From positions 1-27,058 of IMG/VR virus record IMGVR_UViG_3300044715_000159: a stretch of DNA of 27,058 nucleotides; one strand, written 5' to 3'. Origin of the DNA: a virus. Position 1 is the stretch's first letter, and each line of letters opens with the position of its first letter. The position numbers were made by a program, and so were the translations under genes. Below, one piece after another: positions 1,306-26,275 of the stretch. A model generated the notes under the pieces. The model saw nothing but the letters and a program-made list of their open reading frames with translations. It had not been told where the DNA came from and made no database searches.

Positions 1306-1319
1306 ACCATATTATACCT
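1306..1319 (-). promoter_or_regulatory. Candidate leaderless promoter (TATAAT) for the 123-residue gene
   Basis: On the minus strand the helicase stop codon TAG is followed by GTATAATATGGT and then the ATG at 1305. The perfect TATAAT (1316-1311) ends five bases before the ATG, so transcription would begin at or one base from the start codon. No Shine-Dalgarno is present at a usable distance. No clear -35 element is seen. In an AT-rich genome a single TATAAT could be chance; the repeated arrangement in this window raises the likelihood. Confidence 0.5.
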
Positions 1320-3604: not shown

Positions 3605-3741
3605 CGGCCCTCCTGAGAATTACTAGGTGGATGAAAAAATTTTCTTAATCCACAAAGAATGCAATATAGTTCTAGATTATTTATTTCTGTGTACTGTCGA
3701 TCTATTAGCATTCTTCCATTACATTTTATACATTTAATCAC
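3550..3741 (-). CDS. Zinc-ribbon miniprotein
   Basis: This 63-residue protein has a clear four-cysteine zinc ribbon: Cys4-x2-Cys7 and Cys27-x2-Cys30, separated by a short beta-rich segment (RMLIDRQYTEINNLELY). Such phage proteins usually bind nucleic acid or protein partners, but no specific function is known to me. The GTG start at 3741 overlaps the TGA of the lectin-like gene by four bases (GTGA), which indicates translational coupling to the tail operon. Its last 55 bases overlap the start of the HTH gene. The region after residue 35 (HPPSNSQEGRWLLKREQ) is basic and unstructured. Confidence 0.8.
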   Translation of the reverse strand: MIKCIKCNGRMLIDRQYTEINNLELYCILCGLRKFFHPPSNSQEGRWLLKREQLRAKSTMSHL

Positions 3742-4190
3742 GATGTAGGTTTTCCAACTGCTATTATGTTAATTCCTATCGGAGTCTCTCCTCCAACATT
3801 AAATCTTGCAAATCCTTCAACCTTTGATGTTGATATACTATTAATTGTAACTGTTACACCCTTTCCTGAATCTGTTGTGTCTTTATTGTATGGTGTTGCT
3901 GTTACAACTGGAGGATATGCAAACTGCTTTTTAAAGTCATGAGACCAAGAAATGGAGGTTCCTGCTGTTTGAAGTGATGCTGGTGAAACTGTTGTAAAAG
4001 CCGCTTCAATTTGAGCCTCAGAAGTTTTCATTGCTTGTGGACCTTCTGGTCCTTTAGTGTATACCCCAACCTCACCTTTTCTAGACTCGCTGCCTAATTG
4101 ATTGTATAACTCATTAATAGATCTAACAATATCATATATATAGGTAACATCTAGTGGCTGCCCACGCTCAGGTACAGGTAAAATTGGCAT
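3738..4190 (-). CDS. Probable tail accessory protein with H-type-lectin-like domain
   Basis: This is a 150-residue protein. Residues 1-60 form a leader with a helix (TYIYDIVRSINELYNQLG), perhaps an oligomerisation or virion-attachment segment. Residues 78-147 resemble an H-type lectin or gp53-like receptor-binding fold: F86-x3-F90, then Pro93-Pro94 in FAYPPVVTATP, alternating strands (GVTVTINSISTSKVEGFARF), and a closing strand INIIAVG. Such domains bind surface glycans in other phage fibres, so host recognition is a reasonable inference. It is the last gene of the tail cluster. No Shine-Dalgarno precedes the ATG, and an extended -10 box sits six bases upstream, so it is probably expressed from its own leaderless transcript. 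Confidence 0.75.
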   Translation of the reverse strand: MPILPVPERGQPLDVTYIYDIVRSINELYNQLGSESRKGEVGVYTKGPEGPQAMKTSEAQIEAAFTTVSPASLQTAGTSISWSHDFKKQFAYPPVVTATPYNKDTTDSGKGVTVTINSISTSKVEGFARFNVGGETPIGINIIAVGKPTS

Positions 4191-4205
4191 AATATAATTA
4201 TACCA
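4191..4205 (-). promoter_or_regulatory. Extended -10 promoter giving a leaderless transcript
   Basis: The minus strand reads TGGTATAAT, then TATATT, then the ATG at 4190. This is a perfect extended -10 (TGn plus TATAAT) with six bases to the start codon, so the first transcribed base should be the A of ATG. The -10 box contains the stop codon TAA of the upstream fibronectin-like gene. No Shine-Dalgarno and no convincing -35 box are present. The arrangement is nearly identical to that at 22429-22443. Confidence 0.6.
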
Positions 4206-10695: not shown

Positions 10696-11336
10696 TACAC
10701 TTCTTCCAAACTTATTGAGACGTTCCAGTAGTCAAACTTAGTTCCTCTTTTTTCAACAGAGTATGAAAAGTCACTAATAAACATTTCTATCACCTGATTG
10801 TATTGTGCTAAATGGTCGTATGGGTCTGCTGTTGATTTAAAAGCACCCTTGCTGTCATAGGTCAAGAATACCCAAAAAGAACCCTTGTGAGAGTTATACC
10901 ACTCAAGCATATCTGCACCACCTGCACCTCCATCAGTAGTGTAGGACTTGTTAGGAGATATGCCTGTTGTTATGTTAAATGTAGGAACATCGTCATGAGA
11001 TCTAGAAGGAATAAAATTCCAGTTTGTGCTTAGGCTAATCTTGTCTGCAATATGATAGGACCTCATACGTCCATTAATCATTCTCTCTCGTCTTTCAATT
11101 CTTTCTTCTGAAAAATCAAGGGCTCCCCTGTTGTCATCAGTAATTAATAGAAATTGATCTAAAAGTTCTGGACCTGTTCCATCTGGTGCTACTGCTCCTA
11201 CCTCGTACCCTTGAGGAATATACAGGCCATTTAGCAAAGTACCAGAGTTTTCAGACCAAAGCATACCACTTGGTCTATTATATTTCTTTCGTCCCTGAAT
11301 ATACTTTACTTTATCGTCTATTTCATTATCTGGCAT
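10695..11336 (-). CDS. Distal-tail-like minor tail protein
   Basis: This 213-residue protein lies directly after the tape measure and before the hub, the usual place for a distal tail protein that forms the adaptor ring of the tail tip. The middle holds an Arg/Glu-rich helix (SEERIERRERMINGRMRS), and the C-terminal half is a beta-rich domain ending in FDYWNVSISLEEV. The sequence alone is not diagnostic; the assignment depends on gene order and size. The ATG at 11336 has a good Shine-Dalgarno (AAAGGGGTG) and overlaps the end of the tape measure gene by 11 bases. Confidence 0.75.
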   Translation of the reverse strand: MPDNEIDDKVKYIQGRKKYNRPSGMLWSENSGTLLNGLYIPQGYEVGAVAPDGTGPELLDQFLLITDDNRGALDFSEERIERRERMINGRMRSYHIADKISLSTNWNFIPSRSHDDVPTFNITTGISPNKSYTTDGGAGGADMLEWYNSHKGSFWVFLTYDSKGAFKSTADPYDHLAQYNQVIEMFISDFSYSVEKRGTKFDYWNVSISLEEV

Positions 11337-14300
11337 TTAGTGACACCCCTTTAATTCTTCTATCATCAACCTGTCTAATTGTTGACATGACTGCTTGTGC
11401 AATTTCATTTGGATTAGCATCTGTTTTTGCATTAACTGTTAATGTATATGTATTATTATACACTGCTCCGCCTACTGATTTTCCATTATTCATTGCCGTC
11501 ATAGTATTTATACCATGGGTGTCAACTGCATACTTGCTCATTACAAATTCTCCTGGGGTTAACATTCCTGGAACTGTGTCAGTGCCTCTTGCAAGATTTC
11601 TAGCAGCAAACTTACGTGCCCCAACACCACGAGCAGTCCTTCCTGGAGCAACTATTCCACCCTTTGCCCAATATCCGTAACCTCTAAGGGTTGCATCTGC
11701 TGCTGCGCCTAGAGTTTTTATCCATGGATAAAGTGCCAGTCCTTGTTCTTTTGACCCCTTATGAGATGCATTGTCTGGATCATACATTCCTGCTTTGGCT
11801 GCAGCCTCTGCTGCAGCCTTTGCTTCCGCTGCAGCCTTTGCATCTGCTGCTTTCTTGTCAGCAATTGCTTTTGCTTGTGCATCTGCTTCATCAGAATTTG
11901 CATCTGCGCCCATTGCAAGCAAGGCTCTTTCTTCTGGAGTAAGTTTTTGTCCAGAGGTTAGTTTTCTTAATGCTGCTGCGATCTTTTCTGCGTTTTCTTT
12001 AGCAGTCTTTGCTGCTGCATTTGCTGCTGCTGTCTTGGCATTGGCATCTGCTGCTGCTGCATCAGATGCAGTGTTGTCAAATACTGTAGTTACAGTTCTA
12101 ATTTCTTTAACTAAGTGCTCTGTTTCTACACTCTTAGGAATTGCATTAATCTTGTCTAAAATCTGGCCCCAAGAAGTATTTGCTGCGTCAACGGCTTTGG
12201 CTGCTGCCTCAGTTGCCTTTGCATACTCTATTGCCATCTCTTCAATTGACATAACCTTGTCAACTGTTTCTTCCCACTTATCAAGAGTCATACCAGTAGT
12301 ATCGTCAATTGCGACTGCTTCTTCTGCAATTGCCGTCAAATATCCTTCTTGGGCTGCCAGCAAAGCATCATCTTTTTCTAATTTGTCCAGAATGCCCTGA
12401 TGCGATGCCACTGCAGCATCAAGTGGTACTAAGGAATCTTTTAAGGCTTGAAGTGTTGCTTTCTGAGACTCTACTGCCTTTGCTACTACCGCTGCTCTTC
12501 CTTCTTCAATTTTATTAATTTCTTCTTCTTTTAGAGCAATGCTTTCTTGTACCCCTAGAATTTCTTCTCTTAAGTCTAATATTTCTTTTTCTATTAACTT
12601 TCTTGCAGGGTCTGTTTCTAATTTGTATATTTGTTGAGATATATCAAATTGTCTTTGTGAAATCTCTTTTCTTGTCTTTCCGCTTTCTGGACCCTTTTGA
12701 GAATCAAGTTCGTTTGTTCTAGAATTTTCCAGACCCTGCATCATGGCATCGCCTTGGGCTGCAGCAGAACTTGCTCTCATTTCCTGGGCAGCCCTTGCTG
12801 CTGCTGCAATGTCTCCAGATGTAAGTGCATCTGCTAAACTTAATTGCTGTCCCTGTGACTCAACGATTTGCTGATTTAACTCATTGACCTTTTGTAATGC
12901 CTCAACTTGTTTGTCATATTTTTCATTAATGTCTTCTGCAGCCTTGTCCATAATTGCAAGGTCGTTACTATACATTTGATTTTCTTCATTAAGGGCCTCT
13001 ATTTTGTCTGTAAACTTGTCCTTTATCTCTTTTTCTTTACCCTTTATAACTTTTTCTATTCCATTAATTTGATTTTGATAACCCTTAATTACATTTTGAA
13101 CTGCCTTAATTGCGTTATCAACACCCTCATTTGCTCTTGCCTCTGCATCTTGCAAAGAATTTTCAGCATTTGAAATTTGGCTTTCTACTGCTGCACGAGC
13201 ATTCTGAGCAGATTGAAGATTTGCAGATGAAAGACTTATTGACTTAGCCTTTGTTGCCCTATCTGCCTGAATACTTTTTATGGTTTGGTTAGCGCCAACA
13301 GTTGGTATTTCAGTTTTTGTATCTGCATATCTTTTGTCTACAGTTGCTTTTGCAATAGAACCAACTTGCTGATCTGGTTTGTCTTTGCCTACATATGCCG
13401 AAGTTGCACTGCCTAATTTTTCTAAACTTAAATTATTGTATATAGTTCTCTTTGAGTCCATGATCTTTTTTGCTGACTCATAACCTTGCTGAATCTGACT
13501 TGCAACGGTGCTTGTTGCAAATTGAATTGCAACCTTAATATCTGAGTTTGCCTGTATAGCCTTAAGACCAGCAACTATTTCTTCTAGTGCTGCTGCTGCT
13601 TTTTCGCCACCTGTTGCATATTCATCCATTGCTGCAATGGCTTCTGATAGTTGATCTGGGTCACCAATAATAGACCTTAGAGAATCATTTGATACGCCTT
13701 GACCCTTTAAGAATTTTGCAACATCTGGAATTCTTTGTCTATCTTTTTGTTCCTGAATTGCTGCTGTACCTCTAGAAATCATGTTATTAATTTTTTCTCT
13801 ATTAGTTAACTGCTTAGTTAACTCAGCATTTATATTTAGTTCTTCTTGAGTTATTTTGCCAGTAGCAATGGCTGACGTAGTATACTCGTCTTGCAAAATA
13901 TTTTCTATAGAGGCAGCGTCATATCCAGCAGCAAGCAATTTACGTCTTACGACATCCTGCCTGTTCAATAAGTCTAGAGACTTTTGTGCACCAGCATTAA
14001 ACTCTCCAACTACTGCTGCATCAAAATACTTATTATAGGTTTTTCCAAGAGTAGATAAAACAACATCTCCTGTTTTTGTTCCCTCTGGCAAGAACTTCTT
14101 TTTATTATATGGGTTAACAATTCTGCCTTTATTCTTACCCTTTTTAATTTTAGGTCCTGCTGTGGTAAGGTATTTCTTTTGCTCTTCTGGATCTTGTCCC
14201 ATTACAAAGTCTATGAACTGAGCATTATATTTCTTTTTATTTAGTTGCTGCTCTATGCCCTCAAACTTATTTTGAACAGATTTATTGTTTCCTGCAGCAA

Positions 14301-17300
14301 GTGCCTTGTTTAGTTCGTTAATTCCTCCTGCTGCATTGATTGCAGCATTTCTAACATTCTTTAATCTTTGTAAAAGGGACTCATATGGGTCTACCTTCTT
14401 AGCACCAGAGCCGTCTTCATCCCCCAGGCCTAAAGCCTTTCTTGCAGCAATATCTGCATTAACACTCTGCATAAGTCTTTCTTTTGCCACTTGTGCTCTT
14501 AGGGCTGCCTGACCTGCCTCGCTATCATAGTAGTTACGCATTGTCTCTGAACCACCAGAGGCAGCAAGGTTTTTATTGCGTTGGGTGTCAATATCTCCTT
14601 GTGTTATAGTTTTTTCTATAGTAATATATTCTGCAATAATAGTTCTTTTAGTTGATTCAGGCTCATCTTTCCACTGATCCCAAAGTGGAATAAGTCCTGC
14701 TAAACTTACTCCGCCAATTTCTTCTGTTTCTATTAATAAATTTTTAGTTATGGGCCCCTTGACTTTGTCAATTGCCTGTAATGATTTTGTTAAAGCAACA
14801 AGTTTTGCTTTAGGATCAATCTCTTTGCCATTTTCGTCTTCGCTAGAAAAGAATGTTTGAATATTGATTTCTTTGCCAGCCATTTTTTCAACTAGCCCAA
14901 TAGCATCAATAGTATCTGCTCTTGTTTTTGGATCCATATTTACAATATCTACAAATATTCTTTTTGCATTCTTTTTACTGTTAAGGACACTAAGTGAGTT
15001 TAGTAATGAAATAGTCTCTCCAGAGTCTTGAGTTGTTAATAGGTCTAGTGTTGCATCTAGTTGTGCCTCATTATCTTTACCCTCTCCAAACAATTTTATA
15101 AGAGTTGTTCCAGCCTCTGGACTTGCTCCTTCATAAGCAACAAAAGTTTTTATCTTAACTTCTAATTCTTCTGATTGTAAGTTGTCTTTTGCTGTATCAA
15201 GAAAACTTTGAGCATAAGGATTTCCTTCATATTTTGTTGTTACTTGAGTATCCAAAGATCCCATAAAAGCCTTTTTATAATAGTCATCAGGTGCCTTTTT
15301 TAATTTAGAGTAAGTCCCTACTTGCTTATCTAGGATGCCCTTTGTTTCTTTTCTTAACTCAACAAGTTCGTCTTTTTTCTTTGTTTCTAATGCTAGAATA
15401 TCCTCATCTATCTTTTTTTGTTTTGCTTTGTCAGAGGTTGCTTCTTTTTGTTTTAATAGTGAAGCAACTTGAGTATCATAAAGTTTAGATAAAGAATCTT
15501 CTTGTGCTTTTACGGCTTCTAAATTTTGAACATTTAATGCTGCATATTGTGCTGAAGCCTTTTCTCCTTCTGATTCTCCAAATGTTGGACTAAAAAATTT
15601 GAGTGGATTAAAAGTAAGGTACTCATCTTTGATATTTTTCATAAGATTTTCTTCAACATCGGCATTAAGTTTTGACTGCTCTCTTACTATGTTGAGTCTA
15701 ACGTTTAGTGGATCTTTTACAAGGTTTTGTCCCTCTGGGCCGATTAATTCTAATAAGTTTCCACTTATCTGAGTTGTTAATGTAGAGTTGCCTAGTTCTA
15801 TTCCAATCTGGCTTGCTACGCTATTTGCTTGCTCTGCTGTCATTACACCATCAGAAACATATGCAGCCAACTGAATGGCTATCTGTTTTGCAGAGTCTAT
15901 GCCTCCTTCAGTTAAACTTTTTTTAAATCCTTCAAAAACTGTTTTACCAACTTCGTTGGATAAGAAGGTTTCTCCGTACTGCTCTTTTCCTCTGTCAAAC
16001 CCTTCTGTAAATCTGTTATCAGATCCTTCTTTTCTCTTCCTAGCATAAAGTTCACTGGCTCCAACTTTGCCTGACAACTGTCCAATAGCAGACATTTTTT
16101 CTGTTGTTGCAGTAATTTGATCAACATATTTTGATTGTCCTGCTGCTGCTTTTTTGGCTGCTTCATTTAATAAGTAAAGTCCACCACCAACTACTGCTAC
16201 TGCTGTTGCTGCTAAACCGAACTTAGACATCCCTGCAAGCATTGGAGCCATACCTGCAACTGCAGATGCTCCCATTGCTGCCATTCCAGCAGTCTGTTGC
16301 CCAGCCATCATGAGGCCCATACCAGCAGTACCAAGAGCCATTGATGCTCCGCCAGACATTCTTCCTACTTTTTCTGCACGAGCAACTCTGTTTTGCTTAG
16401 ACTGCTCTCTCTGTGTTTGTTTCTGAGCCTTTATAGTTCTTTGCTGATCTTCTTTTACTGCAGCATCATAGGTTCTTGCCTGGGCAGCATTAAGTTGTGC
16501 TCTACGTTCACTTTCTACAAATGCTTTTCTTGCTGCTTCTGTTTGTCGTTTTTGTATTCCTGCCTGCTCTTTTTGTCTTGCTGCTTCGGCTCTTGCTGCT
16601 TTCTCAGCAGCAATTGCTGTTGCTTGCTTAGCCTTTAATTCTCTTTCTGCAAACCTTCTAAGAGTTCTATCAATTTCAGATTGACTAAATCCTTTAGCAC
16701 GTAACTCTGTTGCTAATTGGCCTTGCTTTACTGTAGGGTTTCTTAATCCTGGGTCTCCCTTATCTCTTCCAGGAATAACTCGAAGCCCTCTGGCTGTAGC
16801 AATTCTTGCTGCTTGAGTTTTTGTAAGAGTTGTTTGCCCTGGACCTTCAGATGAAAGTCTTCTGTCTGATTGATTATTAGTGCTTGGAACTGTTCCTGGG
16901 GGCTTTGGTCCAGTATTTGCTGTTGTTAGTTTTGTTAGTGTTCCAGTATTTTTATCTAATTTATACTCTCCAGGCTTTACCAACACTTGGCTTGGATCAG
17001 TTGCAGCAAGATTCATAATTTTGCTTGGCACAAATGCTTTGTCACCAAGAACGGTACTTAGTGCTTGAGATAGTCTAATGTCTTTAGGAAGAAGTTTTGC
17101 TGATACTGATCCTCCATCTTTTTTAAACTTAAAGACTCTTTGATCTAATTCTGCTGCTTTTGCAACTAATGCTCTTTCTTCTTTTGTTGATGGATGCAGC
17201 CCTCTTGCCATAAAGTCTGCTGCTTTTTTATACTCTTGTGTTTGTGCATCTGTTAAACGTAAAGGATTTTTAGGGCCATTCCAATCAAGTATATTAGAAC

Positions 17301-20300
17301 TTCTTTTCTTTGCAAGCATAAATGTATTTAGGAGGCGGGAATCGTACTGGGCAGTTCCAGTCTTCATCTTTAGGGCTCCTTCTCTACCACCAATACCTAG
17401 AGATTCTGTAGGAACAATATGAGACAGTTCTGGTCTTAAGAAGTATCTAACCTTATCTGGAGTAAAGCCAGCAGCAAGCATAGCCTTTCCTGTTTTAGTT
17501 TTAAGGGGATCTCCAACTCTTGCATTAAATTCTGCTTTTTGTGCATCAGCAATAGATCTTACAATTGGAGAAAGTGTTGCGCTTCCTCCTCCAGCAGTTT
17601 TTCCAGTAGACTTTAGATCTGTTTTAAAGTGATCTACTCCAGCAAATCTTCCAGTAAACCCTCCACCAGCAACAAAAGAGTCTCCTCTTTTTGTTACTCC
17701 CATTCTATAAAGCATATTGTCTATAACTTGCTGAGATGATCTTGCGTATCTTGCTCTTCCGTCAGGATCTGACTTAAACTTTTCGTAGTCATCTTTATGA
17801 ACGTATTTTATTTCATCCCCAACTTTTACTGGAACCATTTTTGATATTTCATCTAAGAAGGCTGTCTGTCTTGGAGTATTAAAAGATTGTTCTTTCCCTG
17901 ATGGAGGAACTACTGCCTTGCCACCAGACCATGCTGCTTCAACAATTGCTCTTCTTTGTGGATCAAGTGTTCCTAACTTACTTGCAAACTCACTTTGTGC
18001 AGAAGCCTTAAGATCATTGACTAGTCTAGAGGCTTGTTCTCCTGCAGGAACATTATATTTTGCAAGTTGTTTTTCTAATAAAGATTTTGGAGCATCAGGG
18101 TCAATTCCCTCTATTGCCTTTACAACCCCATCTCCTGCTTTTGTATGCATTGGATGAAGTTTAGACCAATCTGTGGTTGCTCCAGCCTTAAGTCTTTTTA
18201 GCATATCTCCATATACAATTTGCTCTGCTGGATCCAAATTAAAAGACTTAAGAACTTTTTCTAGTCTTGGAATAGATCTATTAATTTCTTCTTTAATCGC
18301 AGCATCATATTGTGCTGGAGTCATTTTTGCAGCAATTCCTGACGTTGCTTGTGCAAAGAATTTCTTTGCTCCGCCCTTTATACCAAGCAAGTTAATGACT
18401 GCCTGTTGTTCCATGCTTGGCATTGCCTTAGAAAAATCTCTAAATCCAGATGCTCTATCAAATACTCCAGCAGTTCCAACATCTGCTAAAACATTGCCAG
18501 ATAGGTTTGGCTGTTGCAAGTCTTTGTCTCCTCTTAGTGTTGAGGCAACTAGTTGTTTAACCATGTCGGACTTTGAAAACTTTCCATCCATTTTTGCAAT
18601 TCTTGGATCATAAGGAGATTCAATAACTATAAATTTTCTTTGTCCTGTTGGATCTGTTGGATCAATCATTGTTTTAATTGTTTGTTTTGGTGCTACAAGT
18701 CCATGTACTTCTCTGGCAATCTGAGTAGCACGTACTTCTGCTAAGGCAGTCTTATCATCTATTGTTGGTTTTACTACTACAATTTGTCCATTAGGCTTTC
18801 TGTATACCCCGCCAACTCCACGAGCAGGAAAACTTCTGCCAGAAAATGATTGAAGCATCGTTCCAAAGTTTGTTGGAGGAACAGATCCAAACCTTCCAGC
18901 AAGGACCTGACTTGAGATCTTATCTAAAATTTGTCTAGACTGTGATGTCTCTGCTGCGCTTTTTGGCATTCCAATAAATGTTGGACCTGACTTCTTTTCT
19001 GGATGAGGCTCATTGTATCCTTGTCTTGCATCATCTCTTCTTCTATATTTTGCTTGCTGAGCATCTCTAACTGCTGCTGGCCCTGCAGATAAAGGAATAC
19101 CCCTGCCTGGTCCACCTGGAAGCCTTCCAGCCATGAATCCTGGAACTTTATCTTGGAACATTGCTGTAATTAAACCTCTATATTTGTCAGTAGTCTCTGT
19201 AGGTATAACTGCTTCTCCTGGAGAAAGCATTGCAGGGACAACATCTCCCGCACCCTTTGGACCTGGTACAGATATAATTCCTTCTTTATACTTTTTTGTT
19301 GGTGGTAATTTACTTACCGCTCTTTTTGCTCCACCCATTCCTCCAGCAAATAGCGCTGGGTTTTGTGATGCCATTGCTCTCATCTGTGTGCTTAAAGAGT
19401 TATATGATGAAGCAAGTGCATTAACAGATGTTTTTTCAACATTAAATACTTCTATCAACTTTGTGTGTGTTTGGTGAAGTTGTTGAGAAGATGCAGCATT
19501 TTCAATCTGCTCTTGAGTCATGTAGTTAAATCCTGCACCCATGACATTTGTTTGTCCGTTTAGTTTTGCTATTCCTCCACGAAGCATTGCAAAGAATTTA
19601 ATAACATTTGCTACTCCATTTGCAAGCAAGCCAAATGTCATAAGGAGGACAGGACCAAGACCTGCAACTACTGCAACTATTGTGGCAACAACTTTTTTAG
19701 TTTGATCGCTAAGGCCATTAAACTTTTCAAAAAGATTTCCAAAAAATTTAACTACTGGAGTTAGTGCCTCAAGAAATGCTTTTCCTAAAGGCATAATCTC
19801 TTGTTTAAACTGCTCTATGGCTGCTTGGAATTTAGCACCAGTTGAGTCTTCTATCTTCTTCATTTCTCTTTCGGACAAAATTGCTAATTCTTCTATCGAT
19901 GCTCCTGCTAACTGAAATGCTCTTGATGCCTGAGATCCATCCTTAGTTACATTTTGAAACAATGTTGACAGACGTGAAAATTGAAACTTTCCAAACATTT
20001 GTTCAATTGCTCTTGCACGATTTAATGGGTCAAGTTCATCTAACGCTCTTGCAAATCCAACTACAGTTCCTTTTATATCTCCCTTATTTGCTTCAACAAG
20101 TCCTTTAATATTAATTCCCAAATCGCCCATGAACTTTGCTGCTTTGTCAGATGGATTAATTAAAGATGCAAGTCCAGACTTAAGTGCGTTAGCACCTTCT
20201 GATGCATTAATTCCACCTTCCTTCATTGCTGTAAGGAAGAAGGCTAGGTCTTCAACAGATCCACCAAGTTGCTTAACGACTGGTGCTGCTTTTGGAATTG

Positions 20301-21345
20301 CAATAGTTAAATCTTCAATAGACAAAAGTGTTTGGTTTTCTACTGCGTTAAGAAAATCAATTTTCTTTGCAAGGTCTTCACTAGAAATTCCAAATGCACT
20401 TTGTAGAGATATCGTTGTTTCAAGTGCCTGCTGCTGTTCTATTTGACCAAGGACTGCTAACTTTGTTGCAGTTTCAACTTGAGCAGTAAGATCGCTACCT
20501 GTAAAACCTGCTGCTGCAGCGGTTGCAGCCATGTTCATTGTATCTTTTACTGCTACGCCATATTTTGTATATTCGGTCCCTAGCCTTCTTATGTTCTGTA
20601 CTGCTGCTTCGACTTCAGCATCATTTGTAAAAGCGTCTCCATACACACGACGAAACTTTACAATCTCAGTATCTAATTCTTTAAAGGCTTTCGCTGCTGC
20701 TGAGCCAAATAAGGCCAAAGGCATTGTCAAACCAACCATCAACTGACGGCCTGCCCACTGAGTATTTTTACCAAAGTTAAGGAGTTGTGTAGATCCCTGC
20801 TTTAGTAGTTGATTAAGGAACTGTTGCCTCTGTGCAGCATATTGAATTCTTGTTCCAAGTTCTGTAAATTTACCACTAGCCATTTGAAGGCTTTTGGGCA
20901 TAATTCTAATTGCATCCATAAATCCAGCATTGGATTTGTTCATTTGGATGTACTGTGCTTGTAATGCCTTTACTCTATCTCTACGTGCACGGTTTATAAT
21001 TTCTCGCTCTTGTGCAAAAGCCTTACCCATAACACGGGTATTAGCAGTTGCTGCTGCCATGGTGTATCTGTAGTACTCACGAAGTGATAGTTTATTTTTT
21101 TCTAAAGCAGATGTAAAGGCTAGTGTGCTTCCTGCAACCTTAACTTGGCTTGCAGAAAATTTTCCTGTAGCACCAACAGACTGGATGAGTTGGGCATTTA
21201 AACCCTTTTGAGCATTTGCAGCAGCCAGGTTGCCCTCAGCAAGTGTTTGATGAAACTTACTGAGGCCTGCCTGAAGTGATCGAAGTTGTGCAAGAGCGGC
21301 AGCCGTATTAAAATTAATATTTATATTAGAGTTTACATCTGCCAA
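11326..21345 (-). CDS. Giant tail tape measure protein with embedded kinase-like segment
   Basis: This 3,339-residue protein should set tail length and help in DNA ejection. Visible in order: an N-terminal helical region (1-195); a TP901-type tape-measure core (about 200-480); a hydrophobic membrane-like stretch (about 548-590, VVATIVAVVAGLGPVLLM); a motif DVVPAMLSPGEAVIP (about 695-712); a protein-kinase-like region (about 835-1075); a possible HNH-like ELSHIVP segment (about 1306-1355); an Ala/Lys/Gln/Arg-rich coiled coil (about 1560-1655); a second hydrophobic Gly/Ala/Met stretch (about 1660-1728); more coiled coil (about 2680-2900); Ala-rich repeats (about 3090-3190); and a second copy of the SPGE-type motif (TVPGMLTPGEFVMS, about 3255). 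It starts at TTG 21345 (ADVNSNINI), with AGAGGTG eight bases upstream; no nearby ATG fits. At about 0.15 nm per residue the upper bound on tail length is near 500 nm, less if the inserts are globular. Confidence 0.95.
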   Translation of the reverse strand: MADVNSNININFNTAAALAQLRSLQAGLSKFHQTLAEGNLAAANAQKGLNAQLIQSVGATGKFSASQVKVAGSTLAFTSALEKNKLSLREYYRYTMAAATANTRVMGKAFAQEREIINRARRDRVKALQAQYIQMNKSNAGFMDAIRIMPKSLQMASGKFTELGTRIQYAAQRQQFLNQLLKQGSTQLLNFGKNTQWAGRQLMVGLTMPLALFGSAAAKAFKELDTEIVKFRRVYGDAFTNDAEVEAAVQNIRRLGTEYTKYGVAVKDTMNMAATAAAAGFTGSDLTAQVETATKLAVLGQIEQQQALETTISLQSAFGISSEDLAKKIDFLNAVENQTLLSIEDLTIAIPKAAPVVKQLGGSVEDLAFFLTAMKEGGINASEGANALKSGLASLINPSDKAAKFMGDLGINIKGLVEANKGDIKGTVVGFARALDELDPLNRARAIEQMFGKFQFSRLSTLFQNVTKDGSQASRAFQLAGASIEELAILSEREMKKIEDSTGAKFQAAIEQFKQEIMPLGKAFLEALTPVVKFFGNLFEKFNGLSDQTKKVVATIVAVVAGLGPVLLMTFGLLANGVANVIKFFAMLRGGIAKLNGQTNVMGAGFNYMTQEQIENAASSQQLHQTHTKLIEVFNVEKTSVNALASSYNSLSTQMRAMASQNPALFAGGMGGAKRAVSKLPPTKKYKEGIISVPGPKGAGDVVPAMLSPGEAVIPTETTDKYRGLITAMFQDKVPGFMAGRLPGGPGRGIPLSAGPAAVRDAQQAKYRRRDDARQGYNEPHPEKKSGPTFIGMPKSAAETSQSRQILDKISSQVLAGRFGSVPPTNFGTMLQSFSGRSFPARGVGGVYRKPNGQIVVVKPTIDDKTALAEVRATQIAREVHGLVAPKQTIKTMIDPTDPTGQRKFIVIESPYDPRIAKMDGKFSKSDMVKQLVASTLRGDKDLQQPNLSGNVLADVGTAGVFDRASGFRDFSKAMPSMEQQAVINLLGIKGGAKKFFAQATSGIAAKMTPAQYDAAIKEEINRSIPRLEKVLKSFNLDPAEQIVYGDMLKRLKAGATTDWSKLHPMHTKAGDGVVKAIEGIDPDAPKSLLEKQLAKYNVPAGEQASRLVNDLKASAQSEFASKLGTLDPQRRAIVEAAWSGGKAVVPPSGKEQSFNTPRQTAFLDEISKMVPVKVGDEIKYVHKDDYEKFKSDPDGRARYARSSQQVIDNMLYRMGVTKRGDSFVAGGGFTGRFAGVDHFKTDLKSTGKTAGGGSATLSPIVRSIADAQKAEFNARVGDPLKTKTGKAMLAAGFTPDKVRYFLRPELSHIVPTESLGIGGREGALKMKTGTAQYDSRLLNTFMLAKKRSSNILDWNGPKNPLRLTDAQTQEYKKAADFMARGLHPSTKEERALVAKAAELDQRVFKFKKDGGSVSAKLLPKDIRLSQALSTVLGDKAFVPSKIMNLAATDPSQVLVKPGEYKLDKNTGTLTKLTTANTGPKPPGTVPSTNNQSDRRLSSEGPGQTTLTKTQAARIATARGLRVIPGRDKGDPGLRNPTVKQGQLATELRAKGFSQSEIDRTLRRFAERELKAKQATAIAAEKAARAEAARQKEQAGIQKRQTEAARKAFVESERRAQLNAAQARTYDAAVKEDQQRTIKAQKQTQREQSKQNRVARAEKVGRMSGGASMALGTAGMGLMMAGQQTAGMAAMGASAVAGMAPMLAGMSKFGLAATAVAVVGGGLYLLNEAAKKAAAGQSKYVDQITATTEKMSAIGQLSGKVGASELYARKRKEGSDNRFTEGFDRGKEQYGETFLSNEVGKTVFEGFKKSLTEGGIDSAKQIAIQLAAYVSDGVMTAEQANSVASQIGIELGNSTLTTQISGNLLELIGPEGQNLVKDPLNVRLNIVREQSKLNADVEENLMKNIKDEYLTFNPLKFFSPTFGESEGEKASAQYAALNVQNLEAVKAQEDSLSKLYDTQVASLLKQKEATSDKAKQKKIDEDILALETKKKDELVELRKETKGILDKQVGTYSKLKKAPDDYYKKAFMGSLDTQVTTKYEGNPYAQSFLDTAKDNLQSEELEVKIKTFVAYEGASPEAGTTLIKLFGEGKDNEAQLDATLDLLTTQDSGETISLLNSLSVLNSKKNAKRIFVDIVNMDPKTRADTIDAIGLVEKMAGKEINIQTFFSSEDENGKEIDPKAKLVALTKSLQAIDKVKGPITKNLLIETEEIGGVSLAGLIPLWDQWKDEPESTKRTIIAEYITIEKTITQGDIDTQRNKNLAASGGSETMRNYYDSEAGQAALRAQVAKERLMQSVNADIAARKALGLGDEDGSGAKKVDPYESLLQRLKNVRNAAINAAGGINELNKALAAGNNKSVQNKFEGIEQQLNKKKYNAQFIDFVMGQDPEEQKKYLTTAGPKIKKGKNKGRIVNPYNKKKFLPEGTKTGDVVLSTLGKTYNKYFDAAVVGEFNAGAQKSLDLLNRQDVVRRKLLAAGYDAASIENILQDEYTTSAIATGKITQEELNINAELTKQLTNREKINNMISRGTAAIQEQKDRQRIPDVAKFLKGQGVSNDSLRSIIGDPDQLSEAIAAMDEYATGGEKAAAALEEIVAGLKAIQANSDIKVAIQFATSTVASQIQQGYESAKKIMDSKRTIYNNLSLEKLGSATSAYVGKDKPDQQVGSIAKATVDKRYADTKTEIPTVGANQTIKSIQADRATKAKSISLSSANLQSAQNARAAVESQISNAENSLQDAEARANEGVDNAIKAVQNVIKGYQNQINGIEKVIKGKEKEIKDKFTDKIEALNEENQMYSNDLAIMDKAAEDINEKYDKQVEALQKVNELNQQIVESQGQQLSLADALTSGDIAAAARAAQEMRASSAAAQGDAMMQGLENSRTNELDSQKGPESGKTRKEISQRQFDISQQIYKLETDPARKLIEKEILDLREEILGVQESIALKEEEINKIEEGRAAVVAKAVESQKATLQALKDSLVPLDAAVASHQGILDKLEKDDALLAAQEGYLTAIAEEAVAIDDTTGMTLDKWEETVDKVMSIEEMAIEYAKATEAAAKAVDAANTSWGQILDKINAIPKSVETEHLVKEIRTVTTVFDNTASDAAAADANAKTAAANAAAKTAKENAEKIAAALRKLTSGQKLTPEERALLAMGADANSDEADAQAKAIADKKAADAKAAAEAKAAAEAAAKAGMYDPDNASHKGSKEQGLALYPWIKTLGAAADATLRGYGYWAKGGIVAPGRTARGVGARKFAARNLARGTDTVPGMLTPGEFVMSKYAVDTHGINTMTAMNNGKSVGGAVYNNTYTLTVNAKTDANPNEIAQAVMSTIRQVDDRRIKGVSLNAR
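11797..11850 (-). repeat. Ala-codon repeat in the tape measure gene
   Basis: The ten-base unit GCTGCAGCCT (plus-strand reading) occurs at 11798, 11810 and 11828, spaced 12 and 18 bases apart, so all copies keep the reading frame. On the coding strand it encodes an Ala/Lys helix (AAADAKAAAEAKAAAEAAAK). A related Ala-rich stretch is near 12000-12065. This looks like in-frame helical repeat expansion and not a mobile or regulatory repeat. Confidence 0.6.
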
Positions 21346-21366: not shown

Positions 21367-21693
21367 TTATTTTGTTAACGAAGTTAATACTGCGCTTGCA
21401 TCGGAGTTTTGAACACCTGATGCTGCGTCAATAATTTCGTAAACTGTAGGAAGGTCTAGAAGTTCTTCTAGTGCTTCCTTGCTCTCTGCCAATTCTGGCT
21501 TGAACTGTTTCATTGCAATTAGAGCACATTCAATAAGAATGTCCATTGATTTATCGTTGTCATCAGATACCGAAGAAAGAAGTGAGAACTTAGCCATAAA
21601 TGGTCTAAGCAGAGATAACTTAAGCGGTCTTACTGCAACTTCTGTTCCGTCTATTAGTGTGATTGTCTTCTTGTTTAAAGGCTTGTCAGCCAT
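21367..21693 (-). CDS. Short tail assembly chaperone (paralogue of the next gene upstream)
   Basis: This 108-residue protein aligns over most of its length with the N-terminal half of the 225-residue chaperone encoded just upstream. Shared patterns are I-x-L-x-D-G-T-E, then P-L-K, L-x-x-F, C-A-x-I-x-M-x-Q, and D-x-P-T-x-Y. Tail assembly chaperones coat the tape measure before tube polymerisation; position directly before the tape measure fits. It corresponds to the short (G-type) form only and has no T-type extension: its stop lies 21 bases before the tape measure start. The ATG at 21693 has an excellent Shine-Dalgarno (AAGGAGGA) and its own extended -10 promoter. It probably arose by duplication. 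Confidence 0.85.
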   Translation of the reverse strand: MADKPLNKKTITLIDGTEVAVRPLKLSLLRPFMAKFSLLSSVSDDNDKSMDILIECALIAMKQFKPELAESKEALEELLDLPTVYEIIDAASGVQNSDASAVLTSLTK

Positions 21694-21718
21694 AGTTCCT
21701 CCTTATAAGGTTTAGTCA

Positions 21719-21727
21719 ATTATACCA
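21719..21727 (-). promoter_or_regulatory. Extended -10 promoter before the short chaperone
   Basis: The minus strand reads TGGTATAAT here, 25 bases before the ATG at 21693. Transcription would start about 18 bases before the gene and include the AAGGAGGA ribosome-binding site. It lies in the 57-base gap between the two chaperone genes and would drive the short chaperone and the tape measure. No -35 match is obvious, as expected for extended -10 promoters. Confidence 0.6.
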
Positions 21728-21750: not shown

Positions 21751-22428
21751 TTAATATGACTCGTAATCAATGCCCATGCCAATTCCAAACCCAGCCTTTT
21801 GTGCATTTACTCCCTGTAATGCAAGAATATCGTTACTGCCATCTGCAGTCCCTTTGCTAAAGACTCTAGCCTTCATATCTTCCCAAGCGTTTTCTTTACC
21901 ACTAGCCTTATCTAAATCAACACCCTGCATGGCAGCCAAAAACTTTTTCTGACCATAGTCCAGATCTCTTTTTACTTTAAGAGTTGCTACTATCTCTGGC
22001 ATTGACATTGAAGATTCTAGTTCATCATAGTCTTTCCAAATCCCCAGCAAAAATACCTCAGCCTCTAACTCTGCTAAATCTAACTCATCCCAAGTAGAAC
22101 CGCTTTCTTTTGCTTGCTTTTTTACTGGCTCTTCAGATTTTTCATTTATTTTAATTCCAGCCGAGTAGTCTAATAGTTTATAGATTGTTGGCATGTCAAT
22201 ATTGTCTTCTAACTGCTCTTGAGTTTTTATGCTTGGATAGTATTGCCTCATGGTTATTGTTGCACACTTAGACAAATAGTTAATTGCCTCATCATCATTT
22301 TTTGATGTTTTTACATTTTCAAATTCTTCTAAAAACAACTTTAAATATTTTATTTTTAATGGGGTGATATACAACTCTGTTCCATCAAAGAGTTCAATTA
22401 TCGAGGTCTTGTATATTTCTGTAGGCAC
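21751..22428 (-). CDS. Long tail assembly chaperone (G-T type) with internal slippery site
   Basis: This 225-residue protein joins a G-type domain (about residues 5-100) and a T-type domain (about 115-225: DLAELEAEVFLLGIWKDYD, later RDLDYGQKKFLAAMQGVDLD and NAQKAGFGIGMG) in one frame. In most siphophages the T part is added by -1 frameshifting; here the long form is the zero frame. An A AAA AAG heptamer lies at the domain junction (22123-22117). I chose the GTG at 22428, because a -10 box sits six bases before it and the possible TTG at 22458 lies inside the terminator hairpin. No Shine-Dalgarno is present at either start. The product should bind the tape measure during tail assembly. Confidence 0.85.
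   Translation of the reverse strand: MPTEIYKTSIIELFDGTELYITPLKIKYLKLFLEEFENVKTSKNDDEAINYLSKCATITMRQYYPSIKTQEQLEDNIDMPTIYKLLDYSAGIKINEKSEEPVKKQAKESGSTWDELDLAELEAEVFLLGIWKDYDELESSMSMPEIVATLKVKRDLDYGQKKFLAAMQGVDLDKASGKENAWEDMKARVFSKGTADGSNDILALQGVNAQKAGFGIGMGIDYESY
22117..22123 (-). promoter_or_regulatory. Candidate -1 ribosomal frameshift site (A AAA AAG)
   Basis: The coding strand reads GTA AAA AAG at the junction between the two chaperone domains, which gives the dnaX-type heptamer A AAA AAG in the correct phase. After a -1 slip the ribosome would read GCA AGC AAA and so on, and meet TGA at 22087-22085 after ten codons. This would release a G-like short product. No strong downstream hairpin is obvious (only a four-base CAAG/CTTG pairing), so efficiency is unclear. 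Confidence 0.4.
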
Positions 22429-22443
22429 TATATAAGTATACCA
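22429..22443 (-). promoter_or_regulatory. Extended -10 promoter giving a leaderless chaperone transcript
   Basis: The minus strand reads TGGTATACT, then TATATA, then the GTG at 22428. The six-base gap places the predicted transcription start on the G of GTG. It follows immediately after the terminator of the major tail protein gene. There is no Shine-Dalgarno. The 18-base pattern nearly repeats the one at 4191-4205. Confidence 0.55.
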
Positions 22444-22450
22444 AACAGAA

Positions 22451-22476
22451 AGGCCCAACCCCGAAGGATTGAGCCT
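22451..22476 (-). terminator. Hairpin terminator with UUCG loop after the major tail protein
   Basis: The minus strand forms an 11-base stem, AGGCTCAATCC paired with GGGTTGGGCCT, closed by a TTCG tetraloop and with only G-U wobbles as imperfections. It is followed by TTCTGTTTGG, a moderate U-rich tail. It starts 18 bases after the end of the major tail protein gene and should reduce transcription from the abundant tube gene into the chaperone genes. Confidence 0.85.
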
Positions 22477-22494
22477 CTCGTATATTAAGTTGTA

Positions 22495-23166
22495 TTATGC
22501 TTCTAGGGAACGATCTACGATCTTTCCGTATGATGCATTGTCGTTTGGAAGAAGACGGAATGAAACTTCAAACATTGAAGCCTCGTCACGCTTTGCTGAT
22601 ACTGTTACGCTCTCGATTGAGAGTGCACGGTATGCAACATAGATTCTTTCCTTTGGCTCTAGAGAAGAACCAGAACCTGGTCCTACTGCTACGAGTCCAC
22701 GCTCTAGTGGAACGTCACCAATATCACCAGCAGACATCTTAATTGATGTTGCTCCTGATGCTGTTACTGGGTCCTGGTTATCTGCAATTGCAACCAAAAG
22801 ATTTTCTAGTGTTGCTTCTGCGAATGCAGTGTTTAGATTAACTGTCATACCTTGCTTGAATAAACGAGCAACGTCGAGAAGTTGATCTACTGCTACTTCA
22901 CCAAAATCAGGTTGGAATGCGAGTTCCAAACCATTTGATGTATATCCTACGTTTGTGAACTTCTCTGCCCAGTTTGGTGTTCCACCATCTGTTGAGAGTG
23001 TGTCCTTGTAAGATGTTGCGGATCCTGCAAAACTTGGAAGATCTGTCGCTGCTTCAGCGTCAGTGATCGCTCCGTCTGATGTGTATCCGATTGGACCTGC
23101 ATTATGTGTAAAAAGTGCTGCTGCACCCACGATAATGTTACTACTTGAACCACGGCTATATGCCAT
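22495..23166 (-). CDS. Major tail (tube) protein
   Basis: This 223-residue protein should polymerise into the tail tube. Gene order (after the tail terminator, before chaperones and tape measure), size, a private promoter and a terminator all match an abundant tube protein. The N-terminus has a Ser/Gly/Ala-rich arm (AYSRGSSSNIIVGAAALF), and a long beta-rich core contains TSNGLELAFQPDFGEVAVDQ. The C-terminal region is YVAYRALSIESVTVSAKRDE. I start it at the ATG at 23166, supported by GAGGTGAG; a TTG at 23217 in the same frame would add a leader overlapping the promoter and is unlikely. No additional Ig-like domain is fused at the C-terminus. Confidence 0.88.
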   Translation of the reverse strand: MAYSRGSSSNIIVGAAALFTHNAGPIGYTSDGAITDAEAATDLPSFAGSATSYKDTLSTDGGTPNWAEKFTNVGYTSNGLELAFQPDFGEVAVDQLLDVARLFKQGMTVNLNTAFAEATLENLLVAIADNQDPVTASGATSIKMSAGDIGDVPLERGLVAVGPGSGSSLEPKERIYVAYRALSIESVTVSAKRDEASMFEVSFRLLPNDNASYGKIVDRSLEA

Positions 23167-23216
23167 ATATCTCACCTCTTTCATTTTTATTAAAAGGGGG
23201 TTGTTTCCTCGCTCCA

Positions 23217-24923: not shown

Positions 24924-25819
24924 TATAACACCCCAAGTTTTGTAATAGACTTAGCATACTTTGAAAGTATCTTGTCTACAATTATGTTTCCTGTTCCTTC
25001 GAAAAGACCCTTATCAAACTGAATTCTAAACTGATCTGTATTGTAAGAAGAAATAAATCTCTTATAGTAGTCTAACTTTCCACATTCTAAGTCGTGGATA
25101 AGCATCTCTGTTGCTCTAAGAATGTCTGATGGTACTGCTGTGTATCCATACTCAACAGTTACCAAGTAATCCCATGTTTTCCCAAACCCTCTATATATAA
25201 ACTGTGGGTCTAAGGAATCTGATGCTGCTGCAGGTAAAACTAGTGGTGCTGATTCAGCACGGTTAATGTTGTCAGATGACTTTTCAATAATTGCTGTCTT
25301 GTCTGATGATACTTCATATTGTCTATCTTCTACCAACTTGTTGTTTTCGTATACCGCTAAAACCTTCTTTACGTCATCCCAGATTGGCAGATAGTCTGCT
25401 CCAGTTCCCGTAAAATGTAAAACCTTCTTCTTGTAATAAAATCCTTCTGTAACAATAGAATCAATAATGGCTCTTGCAATTTCTTCATTTAAAGCATACG
25501 CTGCTATATCTGATGCTGTTGATCCTTTTGTTGATGGGTCTACATATGGTCTTACAATTTCATAAGTTTCTTCCTTAAGGATTGTTTCTCCAACTCCCCC
25601 AAGATTTTTAACAATTTCAACCTTATAAGATGAGTCATAATTCCCTGGCAAAGTTATGCCAATAACGTTTCCTGCTGCCTTATTTAAAAATGTTAATGTT
25701 GATACTGAAAGATCCGCCATATCCGTTATGGTAACAGTAATAGTTGATGATGTTATTCCCGCAGGAACTACAAAATCAACAGGTATATCTGCATATGGCG
25801 AAACTCTCAATATCTCCAT
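24923..25819 (-). CDS. Head-tail connector (adaptor) with N-terminal beta domain
   Basis: This is a 298-residue protein. Residues 1-95 form a beta sandwich (TSSTITVTITDMADLSVSTL), while the rest is mixed. The C-terminal part (PSDILRATEMLIHDLECGKL and SSYNTDQFRIQFDKGLFEG) matches the helical pattern of head-tail connector adaptors that bind the portal. Classic adaptors are about 100-170 residues, so the N-terminal domain looks like an addition, perhaps exposed on the neck. The ATG at 25819 has no clear Shine-Dalgarno; a GATAAT ends five bases before it, so it may also be leaderless. It follows the PVEA-rich gene with a six-base gap. Confidence 0.65.
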   Translation of the reverse strand: MEILRVSPYADIPVDFVVPAGITSSTITVTITDMADLSVSTLTFLNKAAGNVIGITLPGNYDSSYKVEIVKNLGGVGETILKEETYEIVRPYVDPSTKGSTASDIAAYALNEEIARAIIDSIVTEGFYYKKKVLHFTGTGADYLPIWDDVKKVLAVYENNKLVEDRQYEVSSDKTAIIEKSSDNINRAESAPLVLPAAASDSLDPQFIYRGFGKTWDYLVTVEYGYTAVPSDILRATEMLIHDLECGKLDYYKRFISSYNTDQFRIQFDKGLFEGTGNIIVDKILSKYAKSITKLGVL

Positions 25820-25830
25820 CTTTAATTATC
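25820..25830 (-). promoter_or_regulatory. Weak candidate leaderless promoter (GATAAT) for the connector gene
   Basis: The minus strand reads GATAAT, then TAAAG, then the ATG at 25819. The spacing matches the other leaderless candidates and no good Shine-Dalgarno is present, but the box deviates from consensus and overlaps the stop codon of the upstream gene. This is weak evidence on its own. Confidence 0.25.
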
Positions 25831-26248
25831 CAAAAGCCTTCTTGACTTCTTCTGGTGTAGCAATGCGAATATGCCCACGAGTTAGCCACTTATCTGCTTG
25901 TGCTTTTGTAACAATATTGTATCCCTTAGCAATTGCACCAACCTCTTCCCAACGAACGCTCTTTGTTGAGTGAAGTGCTACCTTATCTGAAAGGTTTACT
26001 GACTGTTCGATTACAGTCTTTGGGCCGTCTGCTGCCATTGATCCAATTGCGCCTGTTTCTGTAAATCCTAGTGCTTGAACTGGTTCCTCTGCTGCAGGTG
26101 CTTCGACTACTGCCTCAACAACTGGTGCTTCAATAACTGGCTCTGCTACAGGAACATGCTCTACTGGTGCTTCTACCACTGGGGCTTCGACATGGTCTTG
26201 CTTTTCATTCTGTGATGAAAACGGTCTATTATAATCATTATTTTCCAT
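25826..26248 (-). CDS. Pro-Val-Glu-Ala-rich tethered small protein, likely virion-associated
   Basis: This is a 140-residue protein in three parts: a polar N-terminus (1-19), a low-complexity Pro-Val-Glu-Ala repeat (20-57, units such as VEAPV and EAPVV), and a compact C-terminal domain (about 85-140, with VRWEEVGAIAKGYNIVTKAQ and a Trp-Leu-Thr-Arg motif). The repeat is likely an extended flexible linker. It lies immediately after the major capsid gene and has its own extended -10 promoter and a strong Shine-Dalgarno (GGAGGA), so high expression is expected. A capsid decoration or neck role is plausible, but I know no established function for the C-terminal domain. Confidence 0.75.
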   Translation of the reverse strand: MENNDYNRPFSSQNEKQDHVEAPVVEAPVEHVPVAEPVIEAPVVEAVVEAPAAEEPVQALGFTETGAIGSMAADGPKTVIEQSVNLSDKVALHSTKSVRWEEVGAIAKGYNIVTKAQADKWLTRGHIRIATPEEVKKAFG

Positions 26249-26266: not shown

Positions 26267-26275
26267 ATTATATCA
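26267..26275 (-). promoter_or_regulatory. Extended -10 promoter after the capsid terminator
   Basis: The minus strand reads TGATATAAT, a perfect extended -10, 18 bases before the ATG at 26248. It is followed by the AAGGAGGA ribosome-binding site (TCCTCC at 26253-26258 on the plus strand). It lies just after the capsid terminator hairpin and should restart transcription for the neck genes. Confidence 0.65.

Follow-up and report, generated by a model that had tools for sequence, protein, structure and literature searches.

How many genes of a phage can dispense with a leader is a question raised by two almost identical strings, TGGTATAAT-TATATT-ATG (4205-4188) and TGGTATACT-TATATA-GTG (22443-22426), each at the start of a gene without a Shine-Dalgarno (SD) sequence. 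Both lie in a 27,058-base virus record, analyzed here at its full length and referred to as the window, whose main genes are located on the minus strand. A first-pass annotation had described the strings as a repeated promoter/start module, added two weaker cases (TATAAT-ATGGT-ATG at 1316-1303 and a GATAAT string at 25830-25817) and proposed a deliberate class of leaderless genes in a phage of an actinobacterial host. All four strings were found in the window, and the two strong ones are present as described (Table 1).

Leaderless genes are already known in actinobacteria, where a TANNNT element about 10 bp upstream is their mark (PMC3160421). For mycobacteria, it was reported that a 5′ ATG or GTG is necessary and sufficient, whereas CTG or TTG fail, and that leaderless translation is approximately as efficient as leadered translation (PMC4633059). 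The genes analyzed here resemble those of mycobacteria and Streptomyces in carrying TANNNT about 10 bp 5′ of ATG or GTG and in having no SD. They differ in being phage structural or assembly genes, in the prominence of an extended TGn -10 element and in that their leaderlessness is read from sequence.

Table 1. Positions of the promoter-like elements, genes and terminator discussed in the text (window coordinates).
Feature	Position	Strand	Conservation or basis
TATAAT, 5 nt 5′ of ATG at 1305; doubtful member of the class	1311..1316	-	conserved in 6 relatives
Putative leaderless gene, 150 aa, structural region, after tail genes	3738..4190	-	14 relatives
Extended -10 TGGTATAAT, 6 nt 5′ of ATG 4190-4188	4197..4205	-	invariant in 14 relatives
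Tape measure-like gene, 3339 aa, downstream of short chaperone	11326..21345	-	length and Braelyn/Circinus synteny
Short chaperone paralog, 108 aa, SD-led, just 5′ of tape measure gene	21367..21693	-	phrog_10504
Shine-Dalgarno AAGGAGG of short chaperone gene	21698..21704	-	read directly; conserved
Extended -10 TGGTATAAT, leadered promoter, 25 nt 5′ of ATG 21693	21719..21727	-	conserved in relatives
Putative leaderless long (fused) tail assembly chaperone, 225 aa	21751..22428	-	phrog_10504 and phrog_10474; both Streptomyces phage pieces matched
Extended -10 TGGTATACT, 6 nt 5′ of GTG 22428-22426	22435..22443	-	95/96 distinct relatives, 6-9 nt
Intrinsic terminator between major tail protein gene and leaderless promoter	22448..22479	-	14-pair stem
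Major tail protein-like gene, SD GAGGTGA, upstream of terminator	22495..23169	-	phrog_2175; Braelyn/Circinus synteny
GATAAT, 5 nt 5′ of ATG at 25819; rejected member of the class	25825..25830	-	not conserved
Extended -10 TGATATAAT of leadered SD-led gene 25826-26248 (comparison case)	26267..26275	-	conserved with AAGGAGG in relatives

Kinship and host of the window

The closest named phages to the helicase and the tail assembly chaperone of the window are Streptomyces phages of the Stanwilliamsviridae (~40% identity), and uncultured contigs related to the window reach up to 119 kb. WhiB, which serves as an actinophage marker (PMC6802176, PMC10202952), scored over the cut-off in 7/9 large relatives, this search covering the nine large relatives. 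Since WhiB is present in these relatives and the nearest named phages infect Streptomyces, an actinobacterial host is well supported, which bears out the initial proposal. Searching GTDB genomes for a host with the chaperone as query gave no match, and WhiB as query recovered one contig, labelled Chitinophagaceae. This contig (L234, CANGYR010000020.1), part of a Chitinophagaceae MAG, encodes a WhiB 65% identical to that of these phages and is probably a misbinned phage contig. A search of six relatives for a phage sigma factor detected no sigma-70 domain, and host sigma-A is therefore the likely reader of the promoters described below, at which no clear -35 element is seen.

Leaderless spacing in the window and across relatives

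The first-pass annotation had also proposed to search for the spaced motif in the window and in related genomes. Within the window, TATAAT-N6-RTG (one mismatch allowed) showed no excess, with 13 matches compared to 18 expected; TGNTATANT was modestly enriched (12 observed, 5.4 expected). On the window alone, the two-string pattern is not beyond chance and cannot carry the leaderless claim, so that the relatives decide. There the outcome was different: across 15 related records, TGNTATAMT-N6-RTG occurred 86 times, whereas the reversed pattern occurred 3 times.

The class was sampled in six relatives of 98-119 kb, in which 730 genes were called by a simple codon-usage script. The distance between TGNTATAMT and the start codon peaked at 6 nt (37 genes) and 7 nt (12 genes), while every other distance from 0 to 5 and from 8 to 14 nt accounted for 0-5 genes each. 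None of the genes with a box at 6-7 nt had an SD (0/49) and all of them started with ATG (49/49); among genes with the box at 15-45 nt, 49/90 had an SD and 14/90 a non-ATG start. This amounts to roughly eight leaderless-spaced genes per genome, and several of their families recur between genomes. The leaderless class is real at the sequence level in this group, making a family-wide case for leaderless initiation as a gene class in large actinophages, a virion-assembly gene included.

What had been overlooked initially is that a TGnTATAAT box is also found 5′ of the SD-led genes at 21693 and 26248. Because the same box precedes SD-led genes, it is the spacing and not the box that is specific to leaderless genes. 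The strings at 4205-4188 and 22443-22426 are thus genuine, but instead of a copied module they represent a common extended -10 promoter at leaderless spacing. A leadered, SD-led gene class stands alongside the leaderless one and uses the same -10 box.

These counts also bear on the idea that the promoters are real, but that the genes are expressed from longer read-through transcripts by SD-independent internal initiation, the spacing being incidental. SD-less leadered genes are known in bacteria, and read-through is likely for the gene at 4190, which has no terminator on its 5′ side. Such initiation would, however, leave little reason for so precise a spacing with the SD wholly absent, or for ATG being the only start at 6-7 nt when leadered genes include non-ATG starts, and an efficient-looking terminator stands 5′ of the gene at 22428. 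We consider read-through a very improbable explanation, and leaderless initiation remains our preferred reading.

A second strong leaderless case lies outside the window. It concerns a family of small proteins (~122-134 aa) with a WGVYVWKKSNGKW motif, leaderless at 7 nt with TGGTATACT in 6/6 large relatives (G001-G006). In the Streptomyces phage relatives, a looser pattern exceeds its reverse as well (9 versus 2 in Braelyn), which is why the leaderless habit may be older than the freshwater group.

The start sites at 4190, 1305 and 25819

At 4190, TCTGGTATAATTAnAnT-ATG is invariant at 14/14 related loci, and the codons before it vary; the product of the gene gave no Pfam or PHROG match. In nearly all relatives, the TAA stop of the upstream gene sits inside the 4197..4205 box. 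Because of this, translational coupling has to be considered, in which the downstream gene would be translated by re-initiation after the upstream stop and TATAAT would be a by-product of TAA in AT-rich sequence. The upstream gene likewise stops a few bases before the start at 1305 and 25819. Several observations speak against coupling, beginning with the distant orthologs of the 4190 gene (G001, G004, G006), in which the box persists. In G004, GTG replaces CTG before the box, so that the residue is a different one, but TG survives; in G006, TGGTATAAT is kept 9 nt from the ATG after a different preceding sequence. Moreover, the gene upstream of 22428 ends 66 nt away, behind a terminator, and the genome-wide peak at 6-7 nt would be left unexplained. 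Coupling therefore appears unlikely to us, and we continue with a leaderless promoter as the preferred account of this site.

The two weaker cases fared differently. At 1305, TATAATRTGRT-ATG is conserved in 6 relatives. Its membership in the leaderless class is nevertheless doubtful, since it is without TG, a spacing of 5 nt shows no enrichment among these genes and the site coincides with the end of the helicase gene. The GATAAT string at 25819 is missing from most of ~30 orthologs and was rejected as a member. Of the four proposed cases, the leaderless reading is well supported for the genes at 4190 and 22428, as it is for the class found across relatives, and in both genes the start codon very probably opens the mRNA. 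Transcription would begin at, or within ~3 nt of, these two start codons, yielding a leaderless mRNA that would be translated from its 5′ AUG or GUG.

Promoter, terminator and chaperone genes at 22428

Among relatives of the 22428 gene, which were included down to ~67% protein identity, the box precedes the ATG or GTG by 6 nt, or by 8-9 nt in a divergent subclade, in 95/96 distinct freshwater sequences. An SD was found in 0/96 of them, and the start codon is ATG or GTG in all relatives; the 8-9 nt spacing of the one subclade would imply a leader of 2-3 nt. A terminator hairpin was detected in 49/49 distinct relatives (median fold z-score -5.4, ~30 different stems), standing 5′ of the 22428 promoter and after the major tail protein stop codon. 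It was scored by folding single sequences against shuffles; the stems vary in length and were misaligned by MAFFT. In alignments, position 22428 coincides with the start codon annotated for the Streptomyces phage chaperone, so that the mechanically listed, longer frame opening with TTG at 22458 probably does not give the real start. For annotation, this means that starts missed by SD-trained gene finders can be placed, such as 22428 here.

Between the major tail protein stop and the terminator lies ATAATACAACTTAATATA (22477-22498, minus strand), which is conserved in most relatives, resembles the T7 promoter core and does not occur more than once in a genome. L082, L085 and L093 of the divergent subclade instead carry a similar ATACAACTTAATAT on the 5′ side of the major tail protein gene. 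With at most one occurrence per genome, the T7-promoter-like TAATACAACTTAATATA before the terminator was rejected as a phage-polymerase promoter, and no single-subunit RNA polymerase was found in a search run without a positive control.

The protein encoded at 22428 matches both chaperone pieces of the Streptomyces phages (~92% of its length). It was identified as the long tail assembly chaperone by homology to annotated chaperones and because its gene is flanked by those for the major tail protein and the tape measure protein; in Braelyn and Circinus, the annotated major tail protein gene is found at the position that the major tail protein-like gene has here. Every freshwater relative with a complete gene encodes the long form in one uninterrupted frame of 225-237 aa, rather than by a lambda-type frameshift out of the short gene. 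In most loci, a gap of 27-69 nt separates the long gene from a short paralog, which encodes 105-113 aa and carries AGGAGG as well as a separate extended -10; earlier TTG or GTG starts reported for it by the script were read as alternative starts of the same paralog. It was assigned by its position before the tape measure gene and by its homology with the long form's N-terminal domain (34% identity); both forms match phrog_10504. Among relatives whose sequence extends far enough, nearly all have the two genes adjoining in this order.

Comparing this arrangement to the homologous chaperones of the Stanwilliamsviridae (Braelyn gp56/57, Circinus gp34/35), the order of major tail protein, terminator, promoter, chaperone and tape measure is the same. 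In contrast to the freshwater group, the chaperone of Braelyn and Circinus consists of two pieces in overlapping frames in a -1 relation, the first of which has an SD and, 22-33 nt upstream, a box resembling an extended -10, and there is no short paralog. In these two records (L130, L131, 3001-3660), the second piece is annotated as a separate gene, in Circinus as a hypothetical protein; a frameshift join may be missing from both. In the chaperone tree, the long, short and Streptomyces forms each fall on one side of a single branch, which fits a single duplication before the freshwater group diversified; the tree is unrooted, and since three single-branch groups allow one arrangement, it is silent on which form is nearer to the Streptomyces form.

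Taken together, we regard it as likely that the strings are host sigma-A extended -10 promoters of a leaderless class, with the one at 22428 driving the long chaperone and the short form coming from a separate paralog. The leaderless promoter directly behind the major tail protein terminator would drive the long (fused, lambda GT-like) chaperone, and the short (G-like) chaperone would come from a second gene just 5′ of the tape measure gene, equipped with a separate promoter and a strong SD. The levels of long and short form would then be set by two genes with different modes of initiation and not by -1 frameshifting.

In lambda, -1 frameshifting sets a short-to-long ratio of 30 to 1, which is crucial (PMC5009743). 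Common to lambda gpG/gpGT and the freshwater group are short and long forms encoded next to the tape measure gene and 3′ of the major tail protein gene; the freshwater group differs in needing no frameshift, as the long form is fused in one frame and the short form is a separate paralog. It is tempting to propose, though only tentatively, that in this widespread freshwater group duplication replaced chaperone frameshifting and that a scarce long and an abundant short form are set by leaderless versus SD-led initiation behind the terminator-promoter joint. Given that leaderless translation in mycobacteria is about as efficient (PMC4633059), a leaderless start would not by itself have to keep the long form rare, and the strength of the promoter or the stability of the message may be just as important. 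If the proposal holds, these genes are a candidate case in which a programmed frameshift that is among the best known has been naturally replaced. Relatives with the SD-led, two-frame gene can be set directly against those with the leaderless, fused gene, which opens the question of the short-to-long ratio to testing.

A somewhat less probable alternative is that the short paralog has another role, for instance as a tube or baseplate chaperone, and that frameshifting was not replaced. Its low identity to the long form and its separate branch would agree with such a role, as would the annotation of a single chaperone gene in some actinophages (PMC10885494). Yet both forms stand side by side in conserved order, both are needed in lambda at the ratio given above (PMC5009743), and some T4-like phages use short plus fused chaperone genes, according to the part of PMC10885494 that cites Vladimirov et al. 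2022. As described in that part of the source, the T4-like phages likewise have two genes and no frameshifting; they are an unrelated group, and no leaderless start is reported there for their short or fused chaperone genes. With replacement by duplication as our working proposal, the freshwater actinophages look like an independent two-gene case, which adds a leaderless long form behind a terminator and a short form with a strong SD. No report of leaderless tail assembly genes was found in the open-licence papers searched, and the leaderless twist on short-plus-fused chaperones appears to be new. The tape measure-like gene downstream of both chaperone genes encodes 3339 aa, a size that would point to a very long tail.
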